DNA of 59,715 bases, taken from the IMG/VR virus record IMGVR_UViG_3300042507_007513, positions 1 through 59,715 of that record, one strand, 5' to 3'. Under the pieces are notes generated by a model. That model was given only the letters and a program-made list of their open reading frames with translations, did no database searches and was not told the DNA's origin. A program made the translations under genes and the position numbers. Source of the stretch: a virus. Shown piece after piece: positions 146 to 55,626 of the stretch (its first letter is position 1; each line of letters opens with the position of its first letter).

Positions 146-176
146 GTAGGATTGTAGTGTTCGTGTATTTAATTTT
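146..176. promoter_or_regulatory. divergent promoter pair
   Basis: The plus strand has GTG-TATTTA ending 5 nt before the ATG at 177 (hexamer at 166-171). The minus strand has TACAAT ending 5 nt before the exonuclease ATG at 145. No Shine-Dalgarno sequence precedes either start, so both transcripts would be leaderless or nearly so. The plus-strand box matches boxes at several other unit starts in this window. Confidence 0.55.
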
Positions 177-839
177 ATGGATCAAATGCGGTTGGGCATA
201 ATAAAACACATTAACGCGGCAGCTGCGGATTTTCCTACGCGTTTTGATGAGCCAAGTGTGCCAATAGAGGGAACACCAACCCACTCTTTGTCAGCACCAT
301 CAAAATTTGATACGTGGATGTCGGATATACTTGATTCAATAATTCGAAGGTTTGGTGGTATAAATGATGCAATCGTTTATTTTTTGATGTACCACCTTGG
401 ATTTACACGACCATTGGCAGAAATGCTTGTTGTGCATCTTACGCTTGTTGAAAACATCTTGTGGGATCTGTCTGTATGGTTTTATTTGGGAAGACAAACA
501 GATGTAGTCTCAGAGATTGTCAGGTCAATAATATGGAGTTTTGTAAATGCTCTTAATCTTCCACTTGGGTCTGACGCAGAGCAGCTTGTTGTAAGAGTCG
601 CAATTTCTATACAAGATGGCCTAACAGAAAACTTATGGACACCAACTGTTGTTGGAGAGGTTTGTGCTGCTTTACAACGAGGATGGACTTTGCAGCAGAT
701 ACTAAGCTGGATGCAGCATCTAAGCCGTGGTGGTACTTACTATCACTGGCCTGACACTTGGTTAGAAGCTGAATACGAAATACGGGAAAGAGAAGAAGAA
801 GACAGAGAAAACAGCGAGGCGGGGCTAGAAAATGAGTAA
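177..839 (+). CDS. hypothetical protein, putative virion component
   Basis: A 220-residue protein I do not recognise. The first ~17 residues form a short basic amphipathic segment (MDQMRLGIIKHINAAAADF) resembling the N-termini of several other putative virion proteins here. The middle (about residues 55-150) is rich in hydrophobic and aromatic residues, and the C-terminus is a highly charged Glu/Arg tail. It overlaps the next gene by 8 nt, so the two are co-transcribed, and it belongs to the plus-strand virion group. The start follows a promoter box with no ribosome-binding site. Confidence 0.65.
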   Translation: MDQMRLGIIKHINAAAADFPTRFDEPSVPIEGTPTHSLSAPSKFDTWMSDILDSIIRRFGGINDAIVYFLMYHLGFTRPLAEMLVVHLTLVENILWDLSVWFYLGRQTDVVSEIVRSIIWSFVNALNLPLGSDAEQLVVRVAISIQDGLTENLWTPTVVGEVCAALQRGWTLQQILSWMQHLSRGGTYYHWPDTWLEAEYEIREREEEDRENSEAGLENE

Positions 840-1389
840 ACTAGAAAGATTAATTAAAAAACACATTATGTTGTTTGCGCGGCAAGACACGCAAATTGCG
901 CCAGGTACAAAATCACCAACTAGTCTTTCGTGCAACTGCTGCATAGAAGGCACAAATCAACTAAGTATAACTAAAATATGTGAGGCTGTTAAACAACTGT
1001 CTGGATCTGTTGGAAGCCCTGGATCTAATCAGTGCGCAAAAGACATTAAAAGGAATAATAACAACCCTTGCTCAACAAAAAAGTTTACGAAGGGTGACAT
1101 AATAATTGCAAAATGCCAATCGTATGCAAACTCTGTGGTTGCAGCATTGCCACAAAACGCAACCCCAGCGCAAAGAGCAGAAGCCTCAAGAAAAGCCGAA
1201 TGCGACTGTTTGAACAATGCTATTTCAGGCACGCCAAGTGTAAACAATTTAGGCTTCAGTCAAGCCGTAATGGGCCAGCAAATTTTAGATTTTTATACAG
1301 ACGGATGCTCTTATACTTGGATTAGTACCGTGTGTGGAGAGAGACAAAAGGTTATCGATAGAAAAGGCTTACAGCATCTTATGTGCTGA
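832..1389 (+). CDS. Cys-rich putative virion protein
   Basis: A 185-residue protein with about ten cysteines, including CNCC near residue 34 and CDC near residue 123, which suggest disulfide or metal binding. It begins with the basic helix-like segment MSKLERLIKKHIMLFARQDT, similar to other putative virion proteins in this window. No known family recognised. It is translationally coupled to the upstream gene and ends 11 nt inside the convergent metallopeptidase gene; a plus-strand hairpin with a T-run lies about 40 nt downstream. Confidence 0.65.
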   Translation: MSKLERLIKKHIMLFARQDTQIAPGTKSPTSLSCNCCIEGTNQLSITKICEAVKQLSGSVGSPGSNQCAKDIKRNNNNPCSTKKFTKGDIIIAKCQSYANSVVAALPQNATPAQRAEASRKAECDCLNNAISGTPSVNNLGFSQAVMGQQILDFYTDGCSYTWISTVCGERQKVIDRKGLQHLMC

Positions 1390-2017
1390 TGTGTGAAAAA
1401 GCCACCTCTATTTCTTTCGGCACACAATTAAACCGCCCCTTTAGGGACGGTTTTACTTTATTTATGAGCGATCTTTTTCTCTCAAAAGAATCACCAATCC
1501 ACTTACCAGTATTACAAAGAACCCAGTATTTGTAGAGGGTTATTGCCGCAGATCTTTTGTAATTTTCAACATTTATCGGCAGTCCAAATTTTCTTATAGT
1601 TTTAACGGCTCGCCTTTCGCAGTCAAGCTCGCAGGCAATAGTTTTTTTAGTGTAGACACGGCGTAAACGCTTGTTGTAGTTTGCTTCGCCGTTTTCAAGA
1701 AGGGAAAGCTTGTAAGTTGCGTCCTCACCGCCTTTAAGAAACGTGTTCGTGTAAGCCGGAGATCGCTCTATCCACTGCATCATGTGGCAGTACTCGTGCA
1801 CAAGAAACCCAAGCCATTCGTGAAGCGGCCTGTCGCCCCTGGCAACCACTATGGTTTTTTCGTTATCAGAATCTAAAAAGTATCCACAGCAAAGGGTGTT
1901 ACCAGCAGGCTCCCTGACGTTGTTGCTATTTTTTATTTTTACAACTACTCCGTGCTCTTTTGCCACAGCCTTAACGTGAGCGATAAAATCTTTAACCCTG
2001 CTTTCATTGCTCCCCAT
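1379..2017 (-). CDS. zinc metallopeptidase-like protein
   Basis: A 212-residue protein with the zincin motif HEYCH at residues 74-78 (FLVHEYCHMM), the HExxH signature whose two His bind zinc and whose Glu is catalytic. The flanking HEWLGFLVHEYCHMMQW is typical of small phage SprT/M-type domains; a third ligand cannot be assigned. It could process virion proteins or act on host proteins. It is a single-gene unit, with a GTG-TATTAT box ending 5 nt before the ATG and no Shine-Dalgarno site. Its 3' end is convergent with the Cys-rich gene and contains that unit's terminator. Confidence 0.7.
   Translation of the reverse strand: MGSNESRVKDFIAHVKAVAKEHGVVVKIKNSNNVREPAGNTLCCGYFLDSDNEKTIVVARGDRPLHEWLGFLVHEYCHMMQWIERSPAYTNTFLKGGEDATYKLSLLENGEANYNKRLRRVYTKKTIACELDCERRAVKTIRKFGLPINVENYKRSAAITLYKYWVLCNTGKWIGDSFERKRSLINKVKPSLKGRFNCVPKEIEVAFSHIST
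1430..1454 (+). terminator. rho-independent terminator inside convergent gene
   Basis: Stem AAACCGCCCC / GGGACGGTTT with one C-A mismatch and a TTTA loop, followed by TTTTACTTT on the plus strand. It would end transcription of the 177-1389 unit. It lies entirely within the 3' coding part of the minus-strand metallopeptidase gene. Confidence 0.6.
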
Positions 2018-2033
2018 ATGCTATAATACACTT
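2018..2033 (-). promoter_or_regulatory. GTGTATWWW box, leaderless start
   Basis: On the minus strand, AAGTG-TATTAT is followed by 5 nt and then the ATG at 2017. This is one of the cleanest examples of the repeated box. Confidence 0.55.
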
Positions 2034-2075
2034 AGACGGATCTTGTAGATCTGTAAAGTGCTCAGCGGTAATTTC

Positions 2076-2091
2076 GTGTATATTTAATGTA
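2076..2091 (+). promoter_or_regulatory. GTGTAT-type box before tail fibre gene
   Basis: GTGTATATTTAATGTA directly precedes the ATG at 2092. Counting TATTTA (2081-2086) as the hexamer leaves 5 nt to the start codon. No Shine-Dalgarno site is present. Confidence 0.5.
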
Positions 2092-4602
2092 ATGCCAAGA
2101 ATAAAGACAAAAAACTCCACAACATCTACGTCAACGCCAACAAGCGGATCGTTGCTGCAGGGCGAGCTTGCGGTAAACATAACAGACAAAAGACTTTTTG
2201 TTGGTAATGCATCGGGAAATCCAGTAGAAATCACAAACCAGGGCGTTACCGCTGTATACGGCTCAACAAGCGGTATTTACGTTACGCAAGCAACAGGATC
2301 AACAACAATAGGACTTGATCCAGACATTTACGTAAGCGGATCGATGCACGTTAGTGGCGTATTAACTGATACTACTTCAGCATTAAACATTTTTGCATCA
2401 GAAGATCCAACAACTTCGTGGAGTCATTGGATAAACGCAAAAACATACAATGGTCTTTATTCAGAAGTTGCTGGAACAGACGGCGGTGACTTGGTCTTTA
2501 GAACAGACTCAAACACCATAAGAATTGAGCCTACTGGATCTCTTGCTGTTACTCTTGATACACTTGCTGCTTCGACAGGATACCTTTACCCAACGCCAAA
2601 TGATGTTCGTATCGGAAACAGCAACACAACCACAACCTTCCCTGGAAACGTAACAATCACAAAGGCGCTAACTGTAGACCACATTACAGGTGACATGGAC
2701 GGCGCTGTTTTAAAAGCATGCAAAAACACAGACTCAGTAACGCTACGTAAAGGTGATCCAGTTTTCATATCAGGAAACGTTGGGGCTAGTGATGTTATTG
2801 AAATTCAGCTTGCTCGTGCTGATACCACTGCAAAAATGCCAGCGGTTGGGTTGTGTGCCCAGTCTTTGGCCGTAAACGCAACTGGTTATATCGTAATAGT
2901 TGGTGTTTTAAGTGATACTGACACATCGGCGTTTACTGTTGGTAATAGCGTTTACGTTAATTCAACTGGATGGGTAACAAATGTCAGACCGACTGGCGCA
3001 AGCATTTTGGTGCAAAACATTGGTCGTGTTGGAAGAGTTAACTCAAACAATGGGCAAATCATAGTACTTGGTCCAGGCAGAACAAACGATGTTCCAAACA
3101 ACATTTTGGCGTCTGGAACACTCACTCTAGGAACCCCTGACATAATTACGCCTCTTGCTGGTACTGCAAGCGTTTTTGATACTAACATAGTAACAGCAAA
3201 CGCATTTACGTCAGCGAGTAACGTTAACATTGCAACAGGAAATATTTTTGATCCGCAGCAGAAAATAATTAAAATAGGAACAACTGCTGGGGGTGATGGA
3301 ACTGTTACAATAAGCCTGGGTTCTTCCTCTGCTGGAACAACCACAATAAACAGTCCATCAACTGTTTTGGGGGGAGACATTGCTGTAAACGGTGGTGATA
3401 TAACAACGTCAAACTCTTCAGCTACAATTTTTAATACAACAGCTGCCCGTGTTAATATTGGCGGTGGCGCTAGTGGTGTACAGATTGGGCATCCAACTGG
3501 AACCGTTGTGATGGGCAACATTGCAGCGAACAGCGGAACCATTTCAACAACCGCTACAAGTGCAAACATATTTAACACTACAGCTGCCCGTGTTAATATT
3601 GGCGGTGGTGCAAGCGGTGTGCAGATCGGTCATCCGACTGGCGTCGTCACAGTTGGTGATATCGCGGTTAATGATGGAACTATAACAACAACCGCGGCAT
3701 CTGTAACTGTATTTAATACAACAGCCACTACACTTTCAATGGGCGGGGCCGCTACAACAATGACTATTGGTGGCGCCACATCAGCAAGCACTTTAAACAT
3801 TGGTACTGGCGCAAACGGAGCAGGTGTAACAAAAACAATAAACATAGGAACGGGGGCCTCTGTTGGTTCAGCAACAACAAACATAACGATAGGTCCAAGC
3901 ACAGCCTCTACAGGCACAATAACAATAAACGGAAGAACAAACGTAATAGGGTCAACCGCAACAGGTATAACAATCGGTGGCCTAACACTAGACACTACTG
4001 TTGGCAGCAGCACTGGATTCATAGACATTGGAACGAATTCGATTGTTGGCGGTCATAAGATAATAAATATTGGTACAAACGGATCTTTCGGTAACAGCCA
4101 AATAACAATCGGAAACACTCTAGGTGGGCTTGTCCTTAAAGGATCTTCGGCAAGCGGAGTGATACTTGATTCCGGCCCACTAAGAGCAATAGGTCAGTCA
4201 ATACTAACAAGCTCTGATGTTAGAGCGACTGGTGCGGCTATTGGCTGGTCAAGCGTTCAGTCAACTGGGCATATGCTAGCTGCAAGCGGCTACAGAATAA
4301 CATCAAACGCAATAAACGCACAAACAGCAACTGGCTACACACTACAGGCATCGGACAATGGAAGAGTAATAACTTTTAACAGCGCAGCAAGCCACACGCT
4401 GCGAATACCAACTGGCCTTGACGTTGGTTTCAATGCGACAATAATTCAGCTAGGAACTGGACAGGTAACCTGCACTGGTCTTTCTGGCGCAACATTAAAC
4501 TGCTACGCGTCTGGAAACAAGATAAGCGGTCAGTTTGGTGCTGCGAGTATAATTTGCTACACTACAGACACATACAATTTGGCAGGAACACTCACAGTAT
4601 GA
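2092..4602 (+). CDS. tail fibre / receptor-binding structural protein
   Basis: An 836-residue protein dominated by Gly, Thr, Ser, Asn and Ala in short beta-strand-like repeats (for example NIGGGASGVQIGHPTG, twice), the composition of trimeric beta-helical phage fibres. The N-terminal LLQGELAVNITDKRLFVGN resembles the conserved fibre segment found in many aquatic phages, probably an attachment region. Residues ~220-330 (DPVFISGNVG, MPAVGLCAQSL) look like a small globular domain repeated in phage fibres. The C-terminal ~100 residues are a different, likely tip-proximal domain. The gene overlaps the LRR gene by 4 nt (ATGA). Confidence 0.85.
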   Translation: MPRIKTKNSTTSTSTPTSGSLLQGELAVNITDKRLFVGNASGNPVEITNQGVTAVYGSTSGIYVTQATGSTTIGLDPDIYVSGSMHVSGVLTDTTSALNIFASEDPTTSWSHWINAKTYNGLYSEVAGTDGGDLVFRTDSNTIRIEPTGSLAVTLDTLAASTGYLYPTPNDVRIGNSNTTTTFPGNVTITKALTVDHITGDMDGAVLKACKNTDSVTLRKGDPVFISGNVGASDVIEIQLARADTTAKMPAVGLCAQSLAVNATGYIVIVGVLSDTDTSAFTVGNSVYVNSTGWVTNVRPTGASILVQNIGRVGRVNSNNGQIIVLGPGRTNDVPNNILASGTLTLGTPDIITPLAGTASVFDTNIVTANAFTSASNVNIATGNIFDPQQKIIKIGTTAGGDGTVTISLGSSSAGTTTINSPSTVLGGDIAVNGGDITTSNSSATIFNTTAARVNIGGGASGVQIGHPTGTVVMGNIAANSGTISTTATSANIFNTTAARVNIGGGASGVQIGHPTGVVTVGDIAVNDGTITTTAASVTVFNTTATTLSMGGAATTMTIGGATSASTLNIGTGANGAGVTKTINIGTGASVGSATTNITIGPSTASTGTITINGRTNVIGSTATGITIGGLTLDTTVGSSTGFIDIGTNSIVGGHKIINIGTNGSFGNSQITIGNTLGGLVLKGSSASGVILDSGPLRAIGQSILTSSDVRATGAAIGWSSVQSTGHMLAASGYRITSNAINAQTATGYTLQASDNGRVITFNSAASHTLRIPTGLDVGFNATIIQLGTGQVTCTGLSGATLNCYASGNKISGQFGAASIICYTTDTYNLAGTLTV
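3431..3641 (+). repeat. intragenic direct repeat in the fibre gene
   Basis: Two ~70-bp copies, starting near 3431 and 3572, encode the same fibre repeat (TAARVNIGGGASGVQIGHPTG type). They are highly similar in DNA, with mainly third-base differences, so the second copy is a fairly recent internal duplication. Confidence 0.7.
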
Positions 4603-6168: not shown

Positions 6169-6182
6169 GTGTATAATAATAC
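6169..6182 (+). promoter_or_regulatory. GTGTATWWW box, leaderless start
   Basis: GTG-TATAAT (hexamer 6172-6177) is followed by exactly 5 nt and the ATG at 6183. The hexamer matches the ideal bacterial -10. No Shine-Dalgarno site is present. Confidence 0.6.
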
Positions 6183-8845: not shown

Positions 8846-8860
8846 ATAGCGTAATACACG
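8846..8860 (-). promoter_or_regulatory. GTGTATWWW box, leaderless start
   Basis: The minus strand reads CGTG-TATTAC, 5 nt, then ATG at 8845. It falls in the gap after the stop of the gene at 8861-9067. Confidence 0.55.
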
Positions 8861-10218: not shown

Positions 10219-10236
10219 CACCTATATATACACTTA
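10219..10236 (-). promoter_or_regulatory. GTGTAT box overlapping the Pol III alpha stop
   Basis: The minus strand reads TTAAGTG-TATATATAGG; the TAA stop of Pol III alpha is part of it. No coding sequence starts within 90 nt, so it would drive the hairpin region. Confidence 0.45.
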
Positions 10237-21437: not shown

Positions 21438-21455
21438 CAATCATAAATACACTAG
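21438..21455 (-). promoter_or_regulatory. GTGTATWWW box inside replication operon
   Basis: The minus strand reads TAGTG-TATTTA, 6 nt, ATG (21437). TAG is the dUTPase stop. It would give the downstream replication block its own start of transcription. Confidence 0.5.
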
Positions 21456-21888: not shown

Positions 21889-23808
21889 TCAAGATGTAAT
21901 ATCTACAAGCTCACACTTATCGCCGCTGCACGCAAAAGTCTGTGTTCCGACAGTTGAGTCAGTCTTTTCGTAATCCTTTAGCAAGGACCAATCAAAATTG
22001 CTTGGCATTGACTTACTTAGCTTTTCGTATTCTTCTTTCGTGCAGTCTTGATATGGCGCCTGTCTGTAAGAATGGTCAGAGTGTGGCAAGAAGGAAATGC
22101 CGCTGATTTCATCGAAGTGTGCATATACCCAAGCACCTACATCCATCCACTCATTTTCTTTAACAGTCACAGTAATTGATGGTTTGTGCTCGCACCAATA
22201 TCTTTGGTACATTAGCCAAACCTCAAGATGCTTGATTGCTGAAAGCGAGTTTCTCGTCAAAGATCCTTCGGCCTTCACTGGAAACGAGAAAACCATTGTT
22301 GAGTCTGGCTTCATGACACAAGGCTCATGTGGAAAGCCGTGATCAATCATTAGCTTACAAAGCGGATCTTTTCTGTCAGCGCGGACTGTTCTGATGTAGT
22401 AGTTGTTGTGTCTTGGGTGAATTCCAGAAGCGGCATCGACTAGCTGAGAAACAGTACCGCTTGGTTTTACACAAGTGATTGCTGCTGCTGGCTTTATGCC
22501 AATGCTGTTTGCGTATTTTTTGTTTGTGTCTATAGCTACTTTCTTAAGTCTAGCCAACATCATTTCTGTTTCTTTGCGGGCGGTTGCTGTAGAAGGATTG
22601 TCCATTATGCCAGTCAAAGAAACGCCCAACAGGGCCTCTTCTTCACAATTGTTTTTCCATTCAGATGAAAGGTACGGAAAGTGAGTCAAAGACGCCTGAA
22701 AAGTTCCAAGGATAGTTGCAAGTCTAACCTTTCTCTCAAGCGACTCTTCTGTATCGTTGTTCCGAACAACAACCTCAGTTAGATTACAGAACTCGCGGTC
22801 TCGCAGAATAATTTCAGAGCATGGATTTGTTCCAAACTCATATGAGGCGTCTCTTCTTTCCCCTAGCTTTTCCACAGTTTTTTTGCAAGCTTCACGATTA
22901 AAGATGCCACGCTCGCCGCTTTTACTCTTGTAAAGCGAAACCCACTCTTCCATGAAGATACCAATGTCTGGTCTTTCTTTATAGGCGACGGAGTTGTTTG
23001 CAAGACCGCGTTGGGGATTTTCGTTCCACCAAGCTCCTGATTTTGCATCCCGCATTCTTTCATCAGTGAGATTGCTGAGCGATATAAGTGCAGATCTTCG
23101 CACACCTCCAACCACGACAACTTCTGCAATTTTACAGACCACATCATGGCATTCGATTGAAGTGAGTTTTCTTCCTGCAGCCTTTTTAAAAGTATCAATA
23201 GTGAATCTAAAGAGATCCTCCAATGGCCCCGGACCAGACGCACGCCCACCAAATGTCTTGAGTCTTGCGCCAGCAAGACGAACCTTTGAGACGTCCCATT
23301 TTGGAATTTGGCCTCCAATAAGTAAGGACACCAGCTCTCTGTATGCCTTAGCCCAGCCAGCCTTGCTATCTTGAACGACAATAGTAGTTTCGCTGTTTGT
23401 AAACTCTTCAGCGATAGTTGGTAGCTTTTCGACGTATTGTCGCTCAACAGAGAATCCAACTCCTGTGCCGCACAGGAGAACGTATAGTATTTCATCAAAC
23501 GCGCGGACTCTGCTGACTGTGACATAAGAACAATTATACCCTGCAACGTTGTCTCTCTGCAAAGCTTCGCCAGCAGTCATTAGAGCGCGCATGCTTGGCA
23601 TGATTTCAAGATTAAGAACTGCAGATTTTAGTTCGGATAAAAGCTGCTTGTCAAGATTAAAAGAGCAGTTTGTCTTTAGGTGGTTTGAAAAAAACTCAAA
23701 GTATCTGTTAACAGTTTCGTCCCAAGACTCACGCCGACCAATCGCGTCTTGAAATCTTGAGTATCGTGACAAATGAATAAACTGCTGGTACTGTGTTGGT
23801 AGACTCAT
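21889..23808 (-). CDS. nrdJ: class II (B12-dependent) ribonucleoside triphosphate reductase
   Basis: A 639-residue monomeric class II reductase resembling the Lactobacillus-type RTPR. Seen are the YNCSYV active-site Cys region, CGTGVGFSVERQYV, the radical-Cys loop NPCSEIIL, VKPSGTVSQL, and a C-terminal redox pair in CSGDKC. It makes dNTPs from NTPs using adenosylcobalamin, so the host must supply B12. It sits upstream of dut with no companion subunit, as expected for this class. Confidence 0.92.
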   Translation of the reverse strand: MSLPTQYQQFIHLSRYSRFQDAIGRRESWDETVNRYFEFFSNHLKTNCSFNLDKQLLSELKSAVLNLEIMPSMRALMTAGEALQRDNVAGYNCSYVTVSRVRAFDEILYVLLCGTGVGFSVERQYVEKLPTIAEEFTNSETTIVVQDSKAGWAKAYRELVSLLIGGQIPKWDVSKVRLAGARLKTFGGRASGPGPLEDLFRFTIDTFKKAAGRKLTSIECHDVVCKIAEVVVVGGVRRSALISLSNLTDERMRDAKSGAWWNENPQRGLANNSVAYKERPDIGIFMEEWVSLYKSKSGERGIFNREACKKTVEKLGERRDASYEFGTNPCSEIILRDREFCNLTEVVVRNNDTEESLERKVRLATILGTFQASLTHFPYLSSEWKNNCEEEALLGVSLTGIMDNPSTATARKETEMMLARLKKVAIDTNKKYANSIGIKPAAAITCVKPSGTVSQLVDAASGIHPRHNNYYIRTVRADRKDPLCKLMIDHGFPHEPCVMKPDSTMVFSFPVKAEGSLTRNSLSAIKHLEVWLMYQRYWCEHKPSITVTVKENEWMDVGAWVYAHFDEISGISFLPHSDHSYRQAPYQDCTKEEYEKLSKSMPSNFDWSLLKDYEKTDSTVGTQTFACSGDKCELVDITS

Positions 23809-24837: not shown

Positions 24838-24871
24838 AATTAAGTATAGGTGTATAAATAAAAGTACAGTT
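24838..24871. promoter_or_regulatory. overlapping divergent promoters
   Basis: On the minus strand TATACT is 5 nt before the glycosyltransferase ATG. On the plus strand GTG-TATAAATA lies 11 nt before the ATG at 24872 (13 nt after the TATAAA hexamer). The boxes are packed in about 25 bp, so the two units may compete or be co-controlled. TATAAATA also equals the T4 late promoter core. Confidence 0.5.
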
Positions 24872-25474: not shown

Positions 25475-26412
25475 ATAACAAATTAGAACAAAAAATAAAA
25501 CGTCTTTTGGTTGCAAACAAAGCCACCGCCGCTGATTGTCGGAGGCCAGAGGGTCGATTTCAGGTTGTAGCAAATCCAACAACTAAAACCGAGGACGAGC
25601 GCGGAAATCCTATAGAAGTTGCAACAGATCCTTTGAATTACGTGTACAGAGACGCTACGGCAAAAGATCTGTGTCCAACATGCACTTCAGCCTCATCATC
25701 ACAGGTATGCCAGTGCCTAGACGCTTATTTGCAGTACGATTATTACAAGTGGTATTGCTCTAGTGGCGGTGGGTTTGGTGACGTACACGAGCCGGCACCA
25801 AGACAGCTTCCAGCTGGATGTCCGTCTTTTGCAAGCCTTGGAATGGCTGGTGTGATTAGTAATTATGCTGGATCAGTAGATAATCCGCTTGAGGCGGTCC
25901 CTAGAACATACAGAATGCTTATTGAGTATCTTACTGGTCGATACCCAGCGGATACGACGATCCCAGGAAACTGGGTAAACGTATTCGGGCCAACGCGATT
26001 AACAGAGCCTGACATGCAGGCTCCGACAACCCCAGCCATATGGCAGCAGTTTTGGGATGGTACTCACCCGTACTCACGCTCTATTACATCTAGCCCGTTC
26101 TTTACGCCTGGAGGGCTGCAGCTCGCAAAAATGATGTTTGATGCTAGATGCGGTATACGAGCAGAGGCTACATCTGGGGCATGTTGTTCTGTTGCTGGAG
26201 ATTTCGGAGGTTTCTCGTGTACGCAGGTTGGTGGGCCAGGAGAATGTCAAAACGGAACGTTTTATTCTGGAAAAACCTGCGAACAAATCGGAGGCGACAA
26301 CTGCGGGAAAAGCAAAGTCAGCGTAATAGCTCCTTCGAAAAGAGAAAACACGCAGCTTGGTACGGCTTCGATAACTGATATGATAATAAAAGCCCTAAGG
26401 GGTGGTGTATAA
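25471..26412 (+). CDS. Cys-rich putative virion protein, module family member 1
   Basis: A 313-residue protein starting with GTG after a strong AAGGGGAAAAA site. The N-terminus MNNKLEQKIKRLLVANKATA resembles the shared N-terminal peptide. The C-terminal ~45 residues hold the Cys module ACCSVAGDFGGFSC then GTFYSGKTC and IGGDNCG, which recurs in the next three genes. Other Cys pairs (CPTC, CQC) lie near residues 68-81. It is more diverged and longer than the other three. Likely extracellular on the virion; disulfides are inferred. Confidence 0.7.
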   Translation: MNNKLEQKIKRLLVANKATAADCRRPEGRFQVVANPTTKTEDERGNPIEVATDPLNYVYRDATAKDLCPTCTSASSSQVCQCLDAYLQYDYYKWYCSSGGGFGDVHEPAPRQLPAGCPSFASLGMAGVISNYAGSVDNPLEAVPRTYRMLIEYLTGRYPADTTIPGNWVNVFGPTRLTEPDMQAPTTPAIWQQFWDGTHPYSRSITSSPFFTPGGLQLAKMMFDARCGIRAEATSGACCSVAGDFGGFSCTQVGGPGECQNGTFYSGKTCEQIGGDNCGKSKVSVIAPSKRENTQLGTASITDMIIKALRGGV

Positions 26413-26421
26413 GGTGTTATA

Positions 26422-29694: not shown

Positions 29695-30328
29695 ATTTAA
29701 GTAAAGAAAATCCATTATTGAAAAGCGTGTTTTCTATTTCACTGTGGTTATAAGATTCTATATCGTCATAAACAAATATAGATCCATTGACAGCTCTTTC
29801 TATAAAGAAATTTGTTTCTTTGATAACCGCCTCTGTTGAGTGCGGACCGTCGAAAAAAACTAAAGAATATTTTGTTTCTATTTTTTTATGCTCGTTGTAA
29901 AACGGAACACCGTCTGCGAATCTTTGCATAAACTCTGTGTCTTCTAGGGTGAGAATTACTAAGTTTACTGGAGCGTTTAATACATACCTGTACAGATTAG
30001 ATGAGGCAAAGCACCTCATATTATTTGTGTAGTCAAGTTTTGCTTTTTTATTTTTTTCTGATACTTCGTATTCTACATTTCCATAAGGGTCTATTGAAAT
30101 TATATTTTTACCATAGGATCCAGATGAAATCAATGCTTTTATTATAATCTTCAGGCTTCCACCAAGCCTTGTGCCAATTTCGCATATCATTCCATCTGTG
30201 TTTTTGGATAAATAAACGGCCTGAGACAAAACATCGTAATCTCTACTGTCTGATTCAAGTAGGTCTTCGACGTCTAAATCTAAACAATCAAAAATATCTG
30301 TATTATTTTCGTCTTGATTTTTATTCAT
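29651..30328 (-). CDS. class I SAM methyltransferase (Methyltransf_24-like)
   Basis: A 225-residue protein. Motif I MICEIGTRLGGSLKIIIKAL, the acidic NIISIDPYG, and LVFFDGPHSTEAVIKET with the following SIFVYDDIE match the family of sugar/cephalosporin-hydroxylase-type methyltransferases found in glycan clusters. It resembles the second half of the upstream bidomain protein. It probably modifies a sugar added by neighbouring glycosyltransferases. Confidence 0.75.
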   Translation of the reverse strand: MNKNQDENNTDIFDCLDLDVEDLLESDSRDYDVLSQAVYLSKNTDGMICEIGTRLGGSLKIIIKALISSGSYGKNIISIDPYGNVEYEVSEKNKKAKLDYTNNMRCFASSNLYRYVLNAPVNLVILTLEDTEFMQRFADGVPFYNEHKKIETKYSLVFFDGPHSTEAVIKETNFFIERAVNGSIFVYDDIESYNHSEIENTLFNNGFSLLKYGTSKTKASYLLSK

Positions 30329-32416: not shown

Positions 32417-32428
32417 ATTTAAGTATAG
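32417..32428 (-). promoter_or_regulatory. TATACTTAAAT box, leaderless GTG start
   Basis: The minus strand reads GC-TATACT-TAAAT-GTG. It starts at the end of the T-run of the preceding terminator, so units abut without a gap. Confidence 0.5.
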
Positions 32429-34120: not shown

Positions 34121-34136
34121 TAAAATACACTAGTTT
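34121..34136 (-). promoter_or_regulatory. GTGTATWWW box with short SD leader
   Basis: The minus strand reads CTAGTG-TATTTT about 20 nt before the ATG at 34104, leaving a short leader that includes AAGAGGATA. Unlike most other boxes it gives a leadered mRNA. Confidence 0.5.
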
Positions 34137-38898: not shown

Positions 38899-39519
38899 TT
38901 ATTCTCCAAAAATTGCTGATGAATTAAGTGCTGAGTACTTGTAAGGCTTACTGAGCTTGTCGCTCCAAAACTTTGGCAATCCCATCTTTACCTTCTGTGG
39001 TCTGTCTATTTGATTCGGGCAATACAATATAGCCTCTTCTTGCGCTAGCTTAAAAGTAGAAGGCATGATATTGTGGTTCTTTTGGGCAATAATCTTTTTG
39101 ATTATGCTGCCTTGCTTTACCATGTTAAAATCAAGATTTTTGATAAGCCAGGTATCAACATACGACTCCATTCCCTTGTTGATCCATCGCGTATCGCTTG
39201 TGGAAAAAACAAGAGTAATGTCTCTCTGTCTAGCCAGGGAACACATCATTAAGAGAGCATCGTTGTTTCGTCTTTCGTATTTCGGAAATACAAGCTGTGG
39301 CTCATCAACCCAAATCACGCAGTCTGAAACCTCCTCAAAAGATATTGAGGGGATGTTTTCAACGCCAGTACCGTCTAGTGCTTCTGGAAACGGGTGATCT
39401 ACTATGTAGGTCTTTTTATCCTTTACGGAAGCTAAAATATTAAAACAAGCAGCGGTTTTTCCGCTGCCTGTGTTTCCAACAACCGATACGACTTTGCAAT
39501 TTTTCCAGCTGAAGTTCAT
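38899..39519 (-). CDS. P-loop ATPase
   Basis: A 206-residue protein from ATG 39519. VVSVVGNTGSGKTAACFNIL is a Walker A motif, SDCVIWVDEPQLVF a Walker B motif, and LARQRDITLVFSTSDTRWI a sensor-like strand. The layout resembles small packaging/partition-type ATPases (FtsK/Zot-like), but no DNA-binding domain is attached. The ATG stands 2 nt from the upstream stop. Confidence 0.7.
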   Translation of the reverse strand: MNFSWKNCKVVSVVGNTGSGKTAACFNILASVKDKKTYIVDHPFPEALDGTGVENIPSISFEEVSDCVIWVDEPQLVFPKYERRNNDALLMMCSLARQRDITLVFSTSDTRWINKGMESYVDTWLIKNLDFNMVKQGSIIKKIIAQKNHNIMPSTFKLAQEEAILYCPNQIDRPQKVKMGLPKFWSDKLSKPYKYSALNSSAIFGE

Positions 39520-39520: not shown

Positions 39521-40078
39521 TTACATTGTAGGCTGAGGGACTGCGGACTTAAATCGAACTCCACCGTTCTTGCCGCGCTTGAATTCAATCTTCTCTCCAT
39601 ACTTTGCGATAATCATATCTCGCATATCATTTGGATAAACATTGTATGATTGCGCAAGAGCAACAAGTTTTGCTGTTCCATTTGAGACCATTGTTTCAAA
39701 CTCTGACCAGTTAATCTGTACCGAAGCGGGATCGTTCTTTGATGTTCTCTTCTTCATCTTAATCTCCTTTGTGTTATTAGGTGACTCAATCCAAGCGATA
39801 TCGCGTAAACACTTTACGCATATTGGACTTACATACTTTCCATAAGAAAACGGTAAATGGTCCAGTTTCTGAAAGCAGTGCCTGCACAAACAGCCCTCTG
39901 GCTTGCCTTCGTCGTTGGTGGTGACGAGTACCGTACTCCCGTCACCTTTGTTCATATCAGTATAGCTAAATTGCTGAGCAAGTTTTTTATTTTCGCTTTT
40001 TCTTTGCTCGAATTCTTCCAAGATTTGGTCCAGTGAACGGTATATCCACGCGGATTTTGTGCCTAGAATGACTGTCAT
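39521..40078 (-). CDS. zinc-finger protein with internal start
   Basis: A 185-residue reading frame with Cys pairs CLCRHC and CVKC in the middle (one or two zinc sites) and a basic C-terminal domain (NVYPNDMRDMIIAKYGEKIE) that looks DNA-binding. A strong AAAGGAGATTAAG site lies right before an in-frame ATG at 39757, so a 78-residue C-terminal product may be made separately. Another ATG at 39955 follows a TATACT hexamer. The true N-terminus is unsure. Confidence 0.55.
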   Translation of the reverse strand: MTVILGTKSAWIYRSLDQILEEFEQRKSENKKLAQQFSYTDMNKGDGSTVLVTTNDEGKPEGCLCRHCFQKLDHLPFSYGKYVSPICVKCLRDIAWIESPNNTKEIKMKKRTSKNDPASVQINWSEFETMVSNGTAKLVALAQSYNVYPNDMRDMIIAKYGEKIEFKRGKNGGVRFKSAVPQPTM

Positions 40079-40886: not shown

Positions 40887-41291
40887 TTAATCTCTTACGT
40901 CTTTCTTGAGTCTTTTCGAAACCTCTTTACCTTTGTCCGTGAGGTTTATTACGGTTGTGCCGTCCTGGTTTCTTACAACAGAAGCCAGCCCGTTTATCTC
41001 AAGGTCATGTATCTTACTCTCTATCAGAATTGCTATGGCAAGCTCGTTGTCTATCTCAGTAAGAACTATATCAAGGTTTTGCTTGATAAACTTCTCAATT
41101 GACGACACCATCGGAGAAACGCCCTCAAGATATCTCCATACAACAGTATAATATGCTGCCTTTGCTGATATTTGATCTGGGCTTAGATCATTTTCTTGAA
41201 ATTCAATCTGGGTACAAATGAGGCTATACGCAGACATAATGTTTTTGTAGTCTGCGAATAGTATTTTTTTTGCATCATTGTACCGTTTCAT
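40887..41291 (-). CDS. hypothetical protein downstream of sigma factor
   Basis: A 134-residue protein from ATG 41291, which shares bases with the sigma factor stop (ATGA). It is helical with a C-terminal winged-helix-like part (IHDLEINGLASVVRNQDGTT, then NLTDKGKEVSKRL). It could be a transcription or sigma partner; inference. Confidence 0.5.
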   Translation of the reverse strand: MKRYNDAKKILFADYKNIMSAYSLICTQIEFQENDLSPDQISAKAAYYTVVWRYLEGVSPMVSSIEKFIKQNLDIVLTEIDNELAIAILIESKIHDLEINGLASVVRNQDGTTVINLTDKGKEVSKRLKKDVRD

Positions 41292-41845
41292 CAAATATTA
41301 ATACACCTTTTACTCTCTTCGCAGGCCCTAGAAATTACCTGATAGACTTTTTGCTTGCTGCAATTAATCCTCTTTGCGATTGCATCAATTGTCATGTCTT
41401 CAATAAATCGCATTTTCATTATTTGAGCGTACTCTGGTCTGATCTTTTTGAGTATTTTTTCTACCTGCTCAACATCTTCGCTACCGTTTTTAGAAACATA
41501 GTAGCTCTTTGGCTTTTCTTCAAAAATCTTAGAAGCGACACGATACGTCTTGTTCTTTTTTGTCATCAGATCTTTGACAACACCGCGACCGCGATTAAAA
41601 GCATAGGTAGAAAAATCTGCCTTTGTGGGGTCGTATGAAAATCTGTTTTCCCAAAGGTCAATGTAAATCTCTTGAACCGCGTCATCTCTTTCCGACACTG
41701 GCAGCTTTCCGATTAGTGGGCCACTTCTTGGAAATCTGTTTTCAATGTAGCAAACAATATATTCATTTGCCTGACCATCGTTCATTTCAGAAAACAAAGG
41801 CCTTCTCTCAAGTGCCGGCATTTTTTTGCCCTTCTTTCTTTTCAT
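41291..41845 (-). CDS. phage sigma-70 family factor
   Basis: A 184-residue protein with the two conserved sigma domains. Region 2 (about residues 50-95) includes DDAVQEIYIDLWENRFSYDP and DFSTYAFNRGRG; region 4 (about 135-180) includes MKMRFIEDMTIDAIAKRINC and QKVYQVISRACEES, the helix-turn-helix. No region 1.1 or 3 is visible. It would direct host RNA polymerase to phage promoters, perhaps the GTGTATWWW boxes. It overlaps both flanking genes by 1-4 nt. Confidence 0.82.
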   Translation of the reverse strand: MKRKKGKKMPALERRPLFSEMNDGQANEYIVCYIENRFPRSGPLIGKLPVSERDDAVQEIYIDLWENRFSYDPTKADFSTYAFNRGRGVVKDLMTKKNKTYRVASKIFEEKPKSYYVSKNGSEDVEQVEKILKKIRPEYAQIMKMRFIEDMTIDAIAKRINCSKQKVYQVISRACEESKRCINI

Positions 41846-47040: not shown

Positions 47041-48132
47041 TTAGCAACTAGAGCACGCCTTTAGCAACGACCAAAGGAAAAATTTATTTGCTTCGTAAAC
47101 ATTTAGACCAGTATATATTGCTGATGGTCCTGTAAAGCAGTTAATTGTAGTTGGGAATGTGGTATTGGGAACTCCGCATGGCGTTAGAGATGGGACGATA
47201 GCAGCCCCCTCAAGACTTCTCTGCCAAGCAAACATATTCCTGTCTCCAATATAGATAATGTATCCCTTTTCTATTTTTTCGTAAGCAAAAGGTCTTAGTG
47301 TTGATGTCGTTGCGGGGCAGCAAAGCGCAGGATCCGGAGGGACCGCGCTACATCCAGGATTGCTACTTTGAAATGAGGCAGAGATATTATTTGTAAGCGA
47401 AATGCCGCCAGACGAATGTCCAACGCCGAATGCAGATATCCAGTGCTCACTTGCGTCTTCGGAAGACTTAAATATGTCTCCATCAGGATCGCCTGACGGC
47501 ACTGAAACACTTCCTGTCCAGTATCTATTAATCGGTTGTGCGCCGCAAAAACAACCAAGATTTGCTTGGGTGCAGCGTGAAAGATTTGCATCATCGACAT
47601 CTGGAAGTATTGTAAGACCAGTTGAAACGCCACCTCTAAAAGCGGTAAAGGTAGAGTTCATTGTGTCTAGATTGGCTTTTAATGTACCAGCAGCTACGTT
47701 ATATGTAGTTCTAGATACTGTGTCTCCAATAGCCACAACTTTTCCACCGTTTTTAACGTACTCATTAAGCTTTACGTTTAGTGCAGCGGCACTTCCTGTG
47801 CCAAGGTGATTATCGTAGCTAGGATAAAGTGAAGCGATCTGGCTTGATGCCCCTTGAAGTCTTACAATTCCAAAGAAAACAACAGAACAAGAGTTCAGGG
47901 TCTCAATGCTATCAACCCGAATAACATTGGCCTTTCCCTCGTACATCTTTTCAAAGTCTGTTTTGCATGGCGCCGTAACAGAACCATTAAAAGTTGTTAG
48001 GTCTGTAAGAATGCCAATATTGTTGCAACAACAAACCCTGTGAGTGCTCATGCTATTGTATACACTGTTATATTGTGGGCATGAGCTTGCCAATACTAAA
48101 CTAGTCAGTCCAACGATTGTCTTAATAAACAT
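47041..48132 (-). CDS. secreted Cys-rich protein
   Basis: A 363-residue protein from ATG 48132. A signal peptide (MFIKTIVGLTSLVLASSC) is followed by a large domain with many cysteines (RVCCCNN, CFCG, PALCCPA, ACSSC end) and alternating strands (GGKVVAIGDTVSRTTYNVAA) like a flavodoxin or ThuA/GATase-type sheet (SCSVVFFGIVRL, IIYIGDRNMFAWQ). It would be exported from the infected cell and form disulfides. Function unknown; unusual for a phage. Confidence 0.65.
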   Translation of the reverse strand: MFIKTIVGLTSLVLASSCPQYNSVYNSMSTHRVCCCNNIGILTDLTTFNGSVTAPCKTDFEKMYEGKANVIRVDSIETLNSCSVVFFGIVRLQGASSQIASLYPSYDNHLGTGSAAALNVKLNEYVKNGGKVVAIGDTVSRTTYNVAAGTLKANLDTMNSTFTAFRGGVSTGLTILPDVDDANLSRCTQANLGCFCGAQPINRYWTGSVSVPSGDPDGDIFKSSEDASEHWISAFGVGHSSGGISLTNNISASFQSSNPGCSAVPPDPALCCPATTSTLRPFAYEKIEKGYIIYIGDRNMFAWQRSLEGAAIVPSLTPCGVPNTTFPTTINCFTGPSAIYTGLNVYEANKFFLWSLLKACSSC

Positions 48133-48538
48133 CTGATTTCCTCGCGTAAAGTCCGTATTGCGTAAAGTATACAACGCTTGCGCCTTTTAGCGCAATCCCT
48201 TTTGGGCTTCCAAAGATGTAGAATCCTTGGCTAATATAGGGATCGTAAGTTATCTTTACGATATCGTCTGGTAGAGTAAACCCACTAGGGAGCTTTTCAA
48301 AATAGCCACGAATACCAGCGTGTACGTTCTTTTGTCCAGAACGAAGAACGCGATTTCTGCCAGCCTGAGAAACTTTAAACTCAGCAGCGTTTATGGCAAA
48401 CTGACCAGTGTCGTAGCCAACAACTCTCTTTGTTCTTTCATTTCTTACAGAGAAGCACTTTCGGTGTAGATTTCTGTAGATAAAAACTAGCTCATCTTGT
48501 GGAATTGTTTTGTTATTAACCGCTGAAGTTAGTGTCAT
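48122..48538 (-). CDS. conserved phage hypothetical protein
   Basis: A 138-residue protein from ATG 48538, supported by TTGGAGTTGACC. It contains AEFKVSQAGRNRVLRSGQKN followed by VHAGIRGYF, a motif common in small phage proteins. Basic and beta-rich. Function unknown. It overlaps the secreted protein gene by 11 nt. Confidence 0.65.
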   Translation of the reverse strand: MTLTSAVNNKTIPQDELVFIYRNLHRKCFSVRNERTKRVVGYDTGQFAINAAEFKVSQAGRNRVLRSGQKNVHAGIRGYFEKLPSGFTLPDDIVKITYDPYISQGFYIFGSPKGIALKGASVVYFTQYGLYARKSDVY

Positions 48539-50939: not shown

Positions 50940-50940
50940 A

Positions 50941-51132: not shown

Positions 51133-51156
51133 GTGTAAATCCTTTTGAGGAGTTTT

Positions 51157-51183
51157 GGGGACCGGGCAACGCACCCGGCCCCC
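51157..51183 (-). promoter_or_regulatory. GC-rich intergenic hairpin
   Basis: GGGG-A-CCGGG-CAACGCA-CCCGG-C-CCCC on the plus strand, about 9 bp with one mismatch, between the DUF932 stop and the next ribosome site. Neither strand has a T-run, so it looks like an mRNA-stabilising or processing element, not a terminator. Confidence 0.5.
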
Positions 51184-51193
51184 ATCACTAGAT

Positions 51194-52192: not shown

Positions 52193-52211
52193 CGTAAGTC
52201 CTTAGTGTTGT

Positions 52212-52251
52212 GGGGGAGGCAGAAACAGCTACACGCCGCTCTACCTCCCCC
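52212..52251 (-). promoter_or_regulatory. GC-rich intergenic hairpin
   Basis: GGGGGAGG and CCTCCCCC form a perfect 8-bp stem with a 24-nt loop between the rIIB stop and DUF932 start. No T-run, so a second example of the stable hairpin type seen at 51157-51183. Confidence 0.5.
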
Positions 52252-52299
52252 ATCCCGAAATGATTCTAGCGATTATTCAGTTGCTTGTCTACAGTGTTT

Positions 52300-53157
52300 T
52301 CAGTAATTGTAGTAATCGTACTCGTCACCGCGAGTCTTTGGGGCCTTGCTCGTGCAGCAGTCGTTGCCGCAGCAGTCATCGTCTTCATCCTCAAAATCGT
52401 CTTCCCAAGAGAAGTCGCTACCATCGACAGCGTAGCAAGGGTTGTTCAGCTGCTCCTTGAACTCGGAAAGAACAACATACTCGCAGCAGCGAAGCTTGCG
52501 ACTGTCCTCCGAAGGAACAGAAACAACATCCTTTGGGTTGATCTTGACGATCAGGAACTTAGAGTCAGAGTGACCATATCCGCGAACATAGTCAAGACTA
52601 CCAGCATGGAGGCCATTAGAGCATCCACGATTGCAGTCGTCATCCACGTTACGGCGAGCAACGGAAACGCGAGTGCCGATTCCATTGTAGAACTTGCCGC
52701 TGTAGATGTCGTAATAGTCATTACGGACAGCCTTGTAGGCCAGGAAGTGGCCGTCTTCCGTGATAGGAAGACCTTCATGCTCAAGGAATCCGTAAAGCTC
52801 ATTGCGGGAGCGGAATGACGGATTTTCCATCATGTTATTGATGAAGTTGATGAGAGGCTCAAACGGAAGATTCTCTCGCATGAACTGGAAAACACGATCA
52901 ACAATAAGACCGTGAAGCTGTTCGCCCCTGTAGTAAATCGTCCCATTGGCAACGGTGATATTGCCGTTGTCGGAGACATAAGAACGAACCGCCTCTTCAA
53001 CATTGATCATCTTGTGAAGAGACTGCCAATCACGGTTTCGAATTGCTTCACGGCACTTCTGGAAGTTCGGGTGATTCGAATTGATCACCTTCGGTGACTC
53101 GCCAGAGAAGACAACGGTCATGCTGATATCAGTGCAGATGATGGAAGGAGTGTTCAT
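52300..53157 (-). CDS. rIIB: rIIB-like protein
   Basis: A 285-residue protein from ATG 53157 (AAAGGAAATCACACA site). The C-terminal half matches T4 rIIB: GFLEHEGLPITEDGHFLAYK, YSGKFYNGIGTRVSVAR, CSNGLHAGSLDYVRGYG and KDVVSVPSEDSRKLRCCEYV. The tail is extra: acidic and Cys-rich (DDDCCGNDCC). rIIB with rIIA affects lysis timing and exclusion in T4. It follows rIIA by 19 nt. Confidence 0.85.
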   Translation of the reverse strand: MNTPSIICTDISMTVVFSGESPKVINSNHPNFQKCREAIRNRDWQSLHKMINVEEAVRSYVSDNGNITVANGTIYYRGEQLHGLIVDRVFQFMRENLPFEPLINFINNMMENPSFRSRNELYGFLEHEGLPITEDGHFLAYKAVRNDYYDIYSGKFYNGIGTRVSVARRNVDDDCNRGCSNGLHAGSLDYVRGYGHSDSKFLIVKINPKDVVSVPSEDSRKLRCCEYVVLSEFKEQLNNPCYAVDGSDFSWEDDFEDEDDDCCGNDCCTSKAPKTRGDEYDYYNY

Positions 53158-53176
53158 TGTGTGATTTCCTTTGATC

Positions 53177-55315
53177 TCAGAGCTTTGCGATATAGTTAAC
53201 AATGTGCTTGTTCAGTTCAGTATTGTTGCTGCTAGACCTGTTGATGATAGCAAGAAGCGGGTATTCTTTTTCCATGTTTTGAATTTCTTCTCTGAGTTGT
53301 TCTGGCTCATTCTTGTTATTGGTATCAGCGTTGATTGTGAAGAAGCGGCCAATTTCTCTGATCTTTTCGTACATACCGCCCTTCATCTGCTTTTGGTTTT
53401 CCTCCATGAAGGCTTTGATGTTTTCCCAGAGACAAATAAGGTTTGCAACTCTTGGCTTATCTGCGAATTCGCTAGAACGTGAAGAAATGGCGTTCAACAG
53501 GCTCTTGTTGAAGATTCCGATACCGTAGTAGCCGCCAAGAGACTCGTAAAGATCAGAGTATGATTGCAGATTGGAGTATTTTACGATTGTGCTGCAACCG
53601 TTAAGCTTCTCAATCATGTAATCATTTAGATCAGTCCACTTATCACTGAGCGATTCAGCTTCGCTTGTTCTAAAAACTGGAGTCTTGTTTACGTCGATTG
53701 ACTCTCCAGTAATCTCATTGAAGAGCTTTGCAACACGAACAAAGTCCTTTGCTGCAATTCTGCTTCCGTTAATCTTGACAAGGAAGTGGTCTGCCTTGAT
53801 ATAGAGACCGCCAGCTTTCTTGTCACACTTTCCAGACTCGTAATTTTCAGAAGCTGTTCCCCATGACTTGAGCGACTTCTCGTCCTTGATGAAGTGGCAG
53901 TTGCAATAAGACTGACCCTTTACTCTTGGGAGACGAACAGACTTCGGTGGATCAGCAAGGGTGCTTGCGTTTCTGAAAAGACTCCTTTCAAGCCCGTTTG
54001 CCTTCATCCATGCGTCAGGTGGTGTGGTTCCACCATCATCGTTGGTTCTGTCGTGGAACTGGATAAGGCAGTAGAAGCAGTTCTTGGTCTTTGCGAGGTG
54101 CGCTACCTTTGCGTAGTTTCCACGCTGACCGTCATGGTAAAAGATCTCTTCAACATTCCTGTGGTTGTCGCCCAGGAAAATGTGGTGCACAACTTCGCTT
54201 TTGCCGTTAGGATTGTACAGTCTCGCGGTACAGAATGTGGTGTTGATATCAAGGCTACTGCTGTTAATCGTGATACCGTTCCACTTTACCTTACCGTTGA
54301 TAATCCAGCTAAAATGCCTGTTGAAAGAACCAAACTTCTTCTTGGCTTCAATGATGTTCTTGCAGGCCTTTAGCTGCTTTTCGGTAGATTCGATGATTTC
54401 AGCTTCGATCTCCTTTACCCGATCAAGGATAGCCTTCTTTGTTGCCTCATTGTACTCAAGCTCTTCTCTGTTTGCTGAGATGCTGAGCTTTCCAATTTCA
54501 AAATCAATGCAGATTGGCGATGTTAGTGCGTTTACAGCGTATGTGTTGTTGGTCAGGGTCTGAACATTGATGGGATAACCAATGTTTCCCATAACTGCGA
54601 CAGCCCTGCTCTGATAGTAGGAGCTTACTCCATGTCCGTAAACCTTCCAACCGTTTCCAGAAAGGATCTCTTTTTCGTCAGACTGAAAAGAGATGTCGCT
54701 GATATTAAGAACGCTTGGCTTGACCTTGAAATACTTGACAGCGGTTGCGATTTCGCTCTCGAAAGAGCGAATGTCTGAAATGTTTACGGGAATGACAATC
54801 TCAATACCGTTATCTTCCTTGGTCTTGCTTTCGTCAACCTTTGCAATAGAGCCAAGCCTGGTTTCGTCAATGTACGCGGTATACGTGTGCTTTACGCCGT
54901 CCTTGTAGGAAATGATTGTGAATGAGTCACCGTAAGCAAATCCGCTCTTTGAGCCAAGACCAAGCTGACCAGTATAGTCATTGCTGTTTCGCTTGGTGCT
55001 TCGACCGTACATACAGTAGACATTCCTGATCTCTTCTTCAGTAAGTCCGCGACCAAAGTCACGAACCTTGAATTGTGGGACCATTCTTGTCGGAGCTGTA
55101 ATTACGATTGGCTTATCGCGCAGACCGTTTTCTACATTTGCATCAGCGGCATTTGTAGAGTACTCTCTGACAACAGCAGCGATCTTGTTTGAGTAAAGCT
55201 TGCTGCGAAGAATGTCAAAGATGTAGACAAGATCTTCGCTTGAAGAAATACCGAACTTTGACTCTGTAAATGAACCGAATCGTTCAACGGTGGGAGGGGT
55301 GATATTTGAAATCAT
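53177..55315 (-). CDS. rIIA: rIIA-like GHKL ATPase
   Basis: A 712-residue protein. The N-terminal GHKL ATPase domain shows AAVVREYSTNAADANVENG (N-box with the conserved Glu and Asn), FKVRDFGRGL (G1), and GQLGLGSKSGFAYGDSF (G2). The rest resembles T4 rIIA (725 residues) in length. In T4, rIIA acts with rIIB at the membrane against prophage exclusion. It overlaps the upstream gene by 4 nt. Confidence 0.87.
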   Translation of the reverse strand: MISNITPPTVERFGSFTESKFGISSSEDLVYIFDILRSKLYSNKIAAVVREYSTNAADANVENGLRDKPIVITAPTRMVPQFKVRDFGRGLTEEEIRNVYCMYGRSTKRNSNDYTGQLGLGSKSGFAYGDSFTIISYKDGVKHTYTAYIDETRLGSIAKVDESKTKEDNGIEIVIPVNISDIRSFESEIATAVKYFKVKPSVLNISDISFQSDEKEILSGNGWKVYGHGVSSYYQSRAVAVMGNIGYPINVQTLTNNTYAVNALTSPICIDFEIGKLSISANREELEYNEATKKAILDRVKEIEAEIIESTEKQLKACKNIIEAKKKFGSFNRHFSWIINGKVKWNGITINSSSLDINTTFCTARLYNPNGKSEVVHHIFLGDNHRNVEEIFYHDGQRGNYAKVAHLAKTKNCFYCLIQFHDRTNDDGGTTPPDAWMKANGLERSLFRNASTLADPPKSVRLPRVKGQSYCNCHFIKDEKSLKSWGTASENYESGKCDKKAGGLYIKADHFLVKINGSRIAAKDFVRVAKLFNEITGESIDVNKTPVFRTSEAESLSDKWTDLNDYMIEKLNGCSTIVKYSNLQSYSDLYESLGGYYGIGIFNKSLLNAISSRSSEFADKPRVANLICLWENIKAFMEENQKQMKGGMYEKIREIGRFFTINADTNNKNEPEQLREEIQNMEKEYPLLAIINRSSSNNTELNKHIVNYIAKL

Positions 55316-55611
55316 GTCTTCCTGTAAATCTCATCTTGGGACAAAAGTTCAACTTTGACTGACGCTGTTTTCTTTCCAACTTCTTGAGTTGCCTTGTATT
55401 TTACAGACTGTAGATCTGCATCATTTTGATTTGAGACAGAATCAACAACCTCTGTTTGTACACCAAACGACACGGATATTCTAGCACTTTCAATAGCCGC
55501 AGACCTGAATGATGTGAATGTTTTTGCAGAACCAACAGCAGCAAACGTGTTTCCGTTCCAGAAAAGTCCTAGGCTTTTATCGGACTTGATTTGACGTATT
55601 TGCAGTGCCAT
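55312..55611 (-). CDS. small hypothetical protein upstream of rIIA
   Basis: A 99-residue beta/alpha protein (SAAIESARISVSFGVQTEVV). GTG-TATTAC lies 4 nt before the ATG and overlaps the upstream TAG stop. It is thus probably the first gene of the rIIA-rIIB-DUF932 transcript. Confidence 0.6.
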   Translation of the reverse strand: MALQIRQIKSDKSLGLFWNGNTFAAVGSAKTFTSFRSAAIESARISVSFGVQTEVVDSVSNQNDADLQSVKYKATQEVGKKTASVKVELLSQDEIYRKT

Positions 55612-55626
55612 ATTTGTAATACACTA
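55612..55626 (-). promoter_or_regulatory. GTGTATWWW box before the rII unit
   Basis: The minus strand reads TAGTG-TATTAC-AAAT-ATG; TAG is the stop of the 55624-56013 gene. Confidence 0.5.

Follow-up and report, generated by a model that had tools for sequence, protein, structure and literature searches.

Boxes before the start codons

The 59,715 bases analysed here, which make up the whole of IMG/VR virus record IMGVR_UViG_3300042507_007513 and are referred to below as the window, carry two kinds of short box just before the start codons of a number of genes, amongst them those for an exonuclease-like protein, a glycosyltransferase-like protein and the gene before RIIA (Table 1). Class A has the form GTGTATWWW (W being A or T), whilst class B is TAYAMT (Y being C or T, M being A or C) followed by exactly 5 nt and an RTG codon (R being A or G). 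An original prediction from the sequence had treated these as a single set of -10 elements before starts without a Shine-Dalgarno (SD) site, and its hexamers were found at all 11 of the starts it listed: in the GTGTAT form at seven (177+, 2017-, 2092+, 6183+, 8845-, 21437- and 55611-) and otherwise as TACAAT (145-), TATACT (24837-, and 32416- before GTG) or TTTACT (29694-). Both kinds do lie before starts, but GTGTAT and TATACT/TACAAT are better regarded as two putative promoter classes. Comparisons were made with five near-complete relatives, G001 (125,471 bp, with a reductase 99% identical to that of the window), G002, G003, G006 (approximately the same phage as the window) and G011, and with a pool of 40 sequences from the group having at least 61% TerL identity, which provided 641 non-redundant starts.

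Within the interval 13-17 nt before starts, GTGTAT ranks above every other hexamer in the window (found at 7 of 96 called starts, where 0.09 are expected), as anticipated if the box is more frequent there than elsewhere, and does so too in G001 (15/187 starts), G003 (11/181), G006 (12/99) and G011 (9/124). At 23-32 nt it again holds the first rank in these four relatives, whereas in the window it does not. In the pooled set, 42 starts have GTGTAT at 13-15 nt (0.55 expected) and 55 at 23-32 nt (1.85 expected); one-letter variants at 13-15 nt number zero or one each, except for GTATAT, which at 4 against 0.61 expected is below the flagging threshold. Within the window this enrichment is by position and not by number, as the raw GTGTAT count is at chance level (22, against 21.3 in shuffled sequence), whereas GTGTAT with an ATG 7-10 nt later occurs nine times against 1.6 (maximum seven in shuffles). 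The longer GTGTATWWW is present 11 times, where 200 shuffles average 3.7 and never exceed 10, and its supposed near-absence from gene interiors is about right: two copies are intragenic (30654-, 31706+), the other nine being found 14-16 nt (six), 22 nt (one) and 26 nt (one) before starts and in one intergenic position (10233-). The bare TANNNT hexamer 4-6 nt before ATG did not hold up as a signal (92, against 113 in shuffles), only the specific forms being enriched. Over whole records, box counts against a reversed control show a clear excess in G001 (25/5), G002 (34/10), G003 (31/11) and G006 (23/4), and little or none in G004 (15/14), G007 (8/11), G008 (11/7), G010 (5/5) and G011 (16/12).

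Class B, counted as TA[CT]A[ACT]T at 11 nt, precedes 18 of 274 SD-poor starts and none of 129 strong-SD starts; amongst the SD-poor starts, no other offset between 6 and 30 has more than three occurrences. Amongst 20 class B starts (11 GTG, eight ATG and one TTG) are 145- of the window, the 24837- and 32416- families, and the gene for s2, a small sigma-like protein discussed below, which in several phages is preceded by TATAAT, 5 nt and GTG. Judged by their sequence, the class B starts look leaderless too. One of them, at 39519 (-), was missing from the original list, and G001 has the same start.

At 10 of the 11 listed sites the element is kept in every orthologue with an aligned start in the five relatives. 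The exception is 29694, where none of four orthologue matches has the first 16 residues or the box; as it is not conserved, the TTTACT at 29700..29705 (-) was rejected. At the conserved sites the flanks of the box drift. The box itself is conserved down to 61% TerL identity, and in the most distant tier (34-38% identity, 22 loci) it is nearly but not wholly lost from starts, with two of 74 occurrences at 14 nt, two at 26 nt and one at 32 nt.

Spacing and the predicted transcription start

The gene caller favours ATG codons and SD sites, which biases its start-codon and SD counts; scoring offsets without gene calls, from the first G of 185 non-redundant GTGTATW boxes, escapes this bias. ATG peaks at offset 14, with 32 boxes where the mean offset has 3.8; seven GTG and one TTG codons share this position, and the ATG counts at offsets 17, 18, 19, 20 and 21 fall to 1, 1, 0, 1 and 0. 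SD 4-mers number 12, 26 and 21 at offsets 13, 14 and 15. A TTG peak at offset 12 (13 boxes) is expected from TTGATG. Two reordered control motifs gave no ATG peak, and the TGTGTA control overlaps the box and hence produces shadow peaks.

Distances from box to called start are two-humped in every genome and in every TerL tier down to 61% identity. By gene family, 13, 14, 15, 16 and 17 nt are represented in 5, 16, 5, 5 and 3 families, 18-20 nt in none, 21 and 22 nt in one each and 23-29 nt in four to eight each; some starts called at 23 nt probably correspond to an ATG at 14 nt (e.g. the 177 gene). An SD of at least four letters was found before one of 52 short-spaced starts, where the few bases 3' of the box limit its detection, and before 39 of 57 long-spaced starts. 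The short-spaced class thus almost always combines the lack of an SD with an RTG start, two features expected of leaderless mRNAs.

Two gene families change spacing class between phages. In one, encoding proteins of 640-683 aa, most members have the box at 14 nt and no SD, but L132, L131 and L129 have 21 or 23 nt and an SD; in the other, of 160 aa, the distance is 13-14 nt without an SD in L131, L135, L138 and L147, and 23-26 nt, mostly with an SD, in the other box-bearing members. The G003 gene aligned to the window's 26422 gene likewise has a spacing of 24 nt and an SD. Proteins of the putatively leaderless class are conserved from their first residues: in 20 families (63 pairs, those with fewer than 6 of 12 identical residues being dropped), changes within the first 12 codons number 162, 113 and 300 by codon position, and this bias towards the third position (300/575) implies that coding begins at the ATG.

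As the ATG and SD peaks coincide in offset, two kinds of RNA would arise from a single element whose transcription start is predicted some 14 nt downstream. The simplest reading of the sequences is a single start site near offset 14, from which the RNA would begin with either the start codon or the SD, leaders of around 4-8 nt, which could not accommodate an SD, being avoided. The offset-14 peak, the loss of the SD, conservation and switching between orthologues thus support the originally proposed -10-type element with its start on the ATG. Two modes of translation do appear to coexist, as had been suggested, but the same box seems also to drive the SD-led genes. Some observations weigh against this interpretation, namely the limited SD detection already mentioned, the similarity of ATG/GTG/TTG usage in the short-spaced (47/4/1) and long-spaced (52/4/1) classes, and the finding, by a simple scan, of a terminator-like hairpin directly before only four of 109 boxes.

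Amongst the G001 genes preceded by class A boxes are those for a lysozyme-like protein (42520, at 17 nt), a portal-like protein (49781, at 32 nt), the tape measure (63662, at 25 nt) and a tail-fibre-like protein (69993, at 14 nt). Early-side genes such as that before RIIA carry one too, hence the box appears to be late-type but not only late.

Table 1. Boxes and sigma-like genes, with the start codon that each box precedes.
Feature	Sequence	Position	Strand	Start or product	Conservation
Class A	GTGTATTTA	163..171	+	14 nt before ATG 177 (220 aa)	5/5 relatives
Class A	GTGTATTAT	2023..2031	-	14 nt before ATG 2017 (212 aa)	5/5 relatives
Class A	GTGTATATT	2076..2084	+	16 nt before ATG 2092 (836 aa)	4 relatives; G003 start unaligned
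Class A	GTGTATAAT	6169..6177	+	14 nt before ATG 6183 (93 aa)	4 relatives; G011 start unaligned
Class A	GTGTATTAC	8851..8859	-	14 nt before ATG 8845 (321 aa)	3/3 orthologue matches
Class A	GTGTATATA	10225..10233	-	intergenic, 3' of polymerase gene; no start within 40 nt	conserved
Class A	GTGTATTTA	21444..21452	-	15 nt before ATG 21437 (122 aa)	5/5 relatives
Class A	GTGTATAAA	24850..24858	+	22 nt before ATG 24872 (200 aa)	
Class A	GTGTATAAG	26405..26413	+	17 nt before ATG 26422 (255 aa)	
Class A, SD-led	GTGTATTTT	34122..34130	-	26 nt before ATG 34104, SD AGAGGA between	
Class A	GTGTATTAA	41298..41306	-	15 nt before ATG 41291 (134 aa)	4/4 orthologue matches
Class A	GTGTATTAC	55616..55624	-	13 nt before ATG 55611 (99 aa, gene before RIIA)	4/4 orthologue matches
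Class B	TACAAT	151..156	-	5 nt before ATG 145 (exonuclease-like)	5/5 relatives
Class B	TATACT	24843..24848	-	5 nt before ATG 24837 (glycosyltransferase-like)	5/5 relatives, TATACT or TACAAT
Class B	TATACT	32422..32427	-	5 nt before GTG 32416	4/4 orthologue matches
Class B	TACAAT (CTACAAT)	39525..39530	-	5 nt before ATG 39519 (206-codon open reading frame)	
ECF-like sigma gene		41291..41845	-	184 aa; regions 2 and 4, both above Pfam cut-offs	
s2 gene		G001:44515-45111		small region-2-type sigma-like; near terminase, outside the window	

The original list lacked two class A boxes, one at 34130 (-), which is SD-led, and one at 41298..41306 (-), which sits in the 3'-terminal part of the ECF-like sigma gene. 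The conserved intergenic box may give rise to a small RNA or provide the 10128- gene with a leader of about 90 nt (10233-10129, -). A further sequence, GTGTATACAATAGCATG at 48065-48049 (-), lies inside a 377-aa gene (47041-48174), where it has an in-frame ATG (48051) at the 14-nt distance; it is also present in G001 and G002, and may mark either the true start of the gene or an internal promoter. Between the divergent genes at 145-177, a class A box (+) and a class B box (-) stand back to back and nearly overlap; the s2 gene and the pair 24837/24872 show the same arrangement.

Sigma-like proteins and the reading of the boxes

No conserved -35 motif was detected across 101 distinct class A sites. 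Their profile, in which the box core is fixed by the search itself, has A or T after the hexamer and upstream columns of at most 0.25 bits, except for a weak T at -2 and -20 (counted from the first G); it left out spacings of 18-22 nt by construction, the gap at these distances being evident instead from the distance, family and offset counts. Class A is therefore a single element without a -35, as are the promoters of the phiEco32 gp36 kind.

Two sigma-like proteins are encoded by the relatives. In the window and in G001, G002, G003 and G011, both region 2 and region 4 of the ECF-like sigma exceed their Pfam cut-offs, as a region-4 match also does in G012 and G008. For s2, comparison with the sigma family phrog_1740 gave matches for 18 of 18 members at E values up to 0.1 (best 8e-10), and the 50 matches listed per structure search are all sigma chains or complexes, the highest Z score amongst those listed, 8.2, covering 71 residues at 2.0 A. 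s2 is present in seven of 13 further records, including every tested TerL-tier record that contains its region; the six without it are reductase-based records, some of which may be fragments. The distant tier, in which few starts retain the box, has s2 proteins of just 20-23% identity.

A sigma factor without region 4 would explain the missing -35, as with phiEco32 gp36 and T4 gp55, hence s2 is the likely, though not proven, reader of the class A boxes; a phage-encoded sigma, besides that of the host, is probably involved. The gene after s2 (L124:7317-8156, +) encodes an N-terminal helix-turn-helix and a long helical part, with a Sigma70_r4_2 match only below the cut-off in four records and no Pfam match for the G001 copy. 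Its product may act as a region-4 partner or instead be the small subunit of the terminase; a split sigma was considered and is not claimed, the helix-turn-helix matches being below cut-off.

We infer from these features that class A is a -10-type promoter of this phage group, composed of a single element, with transcription starting 5 nt past the nonamer, or about 14 nt from its first G. In many genes the start codon would stand exactly at +1, yielding a leaderless RNA translated from a 5' AUG or GUG; in others the SD would do so, the start codon following at least 8 nt further on. The occupant of +1 would set the mode of translation, and appears to have changed between orthologues. Class A would most likely be read by the host RNA polymerase with s2, whilst s2 itself and a few other genes would be served by class B boxes, which resemble primary-sigma -10 elements and may be read by the unmodified host polymerase before s2 accumulates. 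As a whole, we consider this explanation to be the best available and probably correct.

Several results weigh against the assignment to s2. The match of s2 to Pfam Sigma70_r2, at 17-17.7 bits, is below the cut-off of 24; its model has a pLDDT of 73 and a pTM of 0.50, and the structure tool warns that Z scores below 13 may reflect a common helical arrangement. No Foldseek match reached E 0.001, the s2 profile found no sigma amongst the sequences of solved structures in the PDB (13 unrelated matches, E of at least 0.29), and no similarity to phiEco32 gp36 was detectable (hhalign probability 0.3, E 0.24, 13 columns). The presence of an ECF-like sigma with region 4 provides another candidate reader of class A. 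A substantial, if lesser, possibility is that the leaderless architecture stands but class A is read by this ECF-like sigma, or by the host primary sigma as an extended -10, as would suit the shared position, with respect to the start, of the class A TATWWW and the class B hexamer. However, the -35 motif that region 4 would predict is not observed, a GTG abutting TATWWW differs from the usual TGN extended -10, and s2 occurs wherever its region is present amongst the TerL-tier records tested.

That the box acts at the level of mRNA, as a translation enhancer or processing site, is improbable. Its fixed distance from start codons would fit such a signal, but in the long-spaced class this distance is held by the SD and not by the start codon, the orientation of the box and its AT-rich continuation are -10-like, and 31 of 109 boxes sit between divergent genes, where there is no upstream transcript from which an RNA could be processed. 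Least credible of all is that transcripts begin further upstream and the boxes are ordinary AT-rich sequence before starts that merely lack an SD, for although GTGTAT is about as common in the window as in shuffled sequence, its enrichment by position and the two classes of spacing hold over the 40 pooled sequences, the box outlasts its flanks and orthologues switch class.

If class A is the promoter proposed here, these genomes offer a sequence-readable map of predicted transcription starts for an uncultured phage group, a prediction of its late-type sigma specificity and a means of correcting start positions from promoter geometry. Matched orthologues differing only in being leaderless or SD-led would amount to a natural experiment on the choice of mode. 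We advance more tentatively, rating it a little short of evenly balanced, the general proposal of a promoter code, in which the geometry of one sigma assigns the translation mode by placing either a start codon or an SD at +1, and lineages switch genes between the two. Such a phage could shift expression as ribosomes or initiation factors change during infection.

The phage group and comparison with known systems

A T4-like identity, considered on the basis of matches to RIIA and UvsX, was rejected: the polymerase is PolIII alpha, the ribonucleotide reductase is B12-type, and the nearest TerL proteins, at 24-26%, are those of Bacillus phages. The reductase (21889-23808, -) has 580 relatives in IMG/VR and marks a large uncultured phage group. 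No match was found for the portal protein, and WhiB over the cut-off is absent in 6/6. Host searches gave nothing with TerL in genome contigs and, with the reductase, five loci in unrelated bins (46-63% identity) that led nowhere; against a phage collection, s2 members had no match and the ECF-like sigma only weak ones.

Leaderless transcripts are known in Thermus phages. Phage transcripts are said to be 'often leaderless' in one source (PMC5312081), and another names lambda and P2 as examples (PMC4633059). In a literature survey mostly short of full text, no report was found of a phage-wide box with either an AUG or an SD at +1; the known parts, a phage sigma without a -35 and leaderless mRNA, were not found described in combination.

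T4 gp55 is described as a small diverged sigma with region 2 only, acting at late promoters without a -35 (PMC2988020). Its structure (7d7c_F) is amongst the matches of s2, with a Z score of 7.2 over 89 residues at 6.1 A. The T4 late promoter element, TATAAATA, differs in sequence from class A.

The phiEco32 system is similar in having one 9-bp element that contains TGTATA, tAATGTAtA, and no -35; its sigma, gp36, is without region 4, and start sites lie 6-8 bp downstream (PMC8948821). However, the annotated starts of the six phiEco32 genes named in that source are 19, 41, 46, 67, 44 and 47 nt past the first A of AATGTA, and none falls on the transcription start site, whereas here many starts are predicted to do so. 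Leaderlessness is therefore not inherent in single-element sigma systems. In mycobacteria, a 5' ATG or GTG is reported to be necessary and sufficient for leaderless translation, whilst TTG fails (PMC4633059); the codons at offset 14 (32 ATG, seven GTG and one TTG) are alike in this respect. The mycobacterial cases concern bacterial genes and host promoters, unlike the phage box described here, which is predicted to serve two modes of translation.

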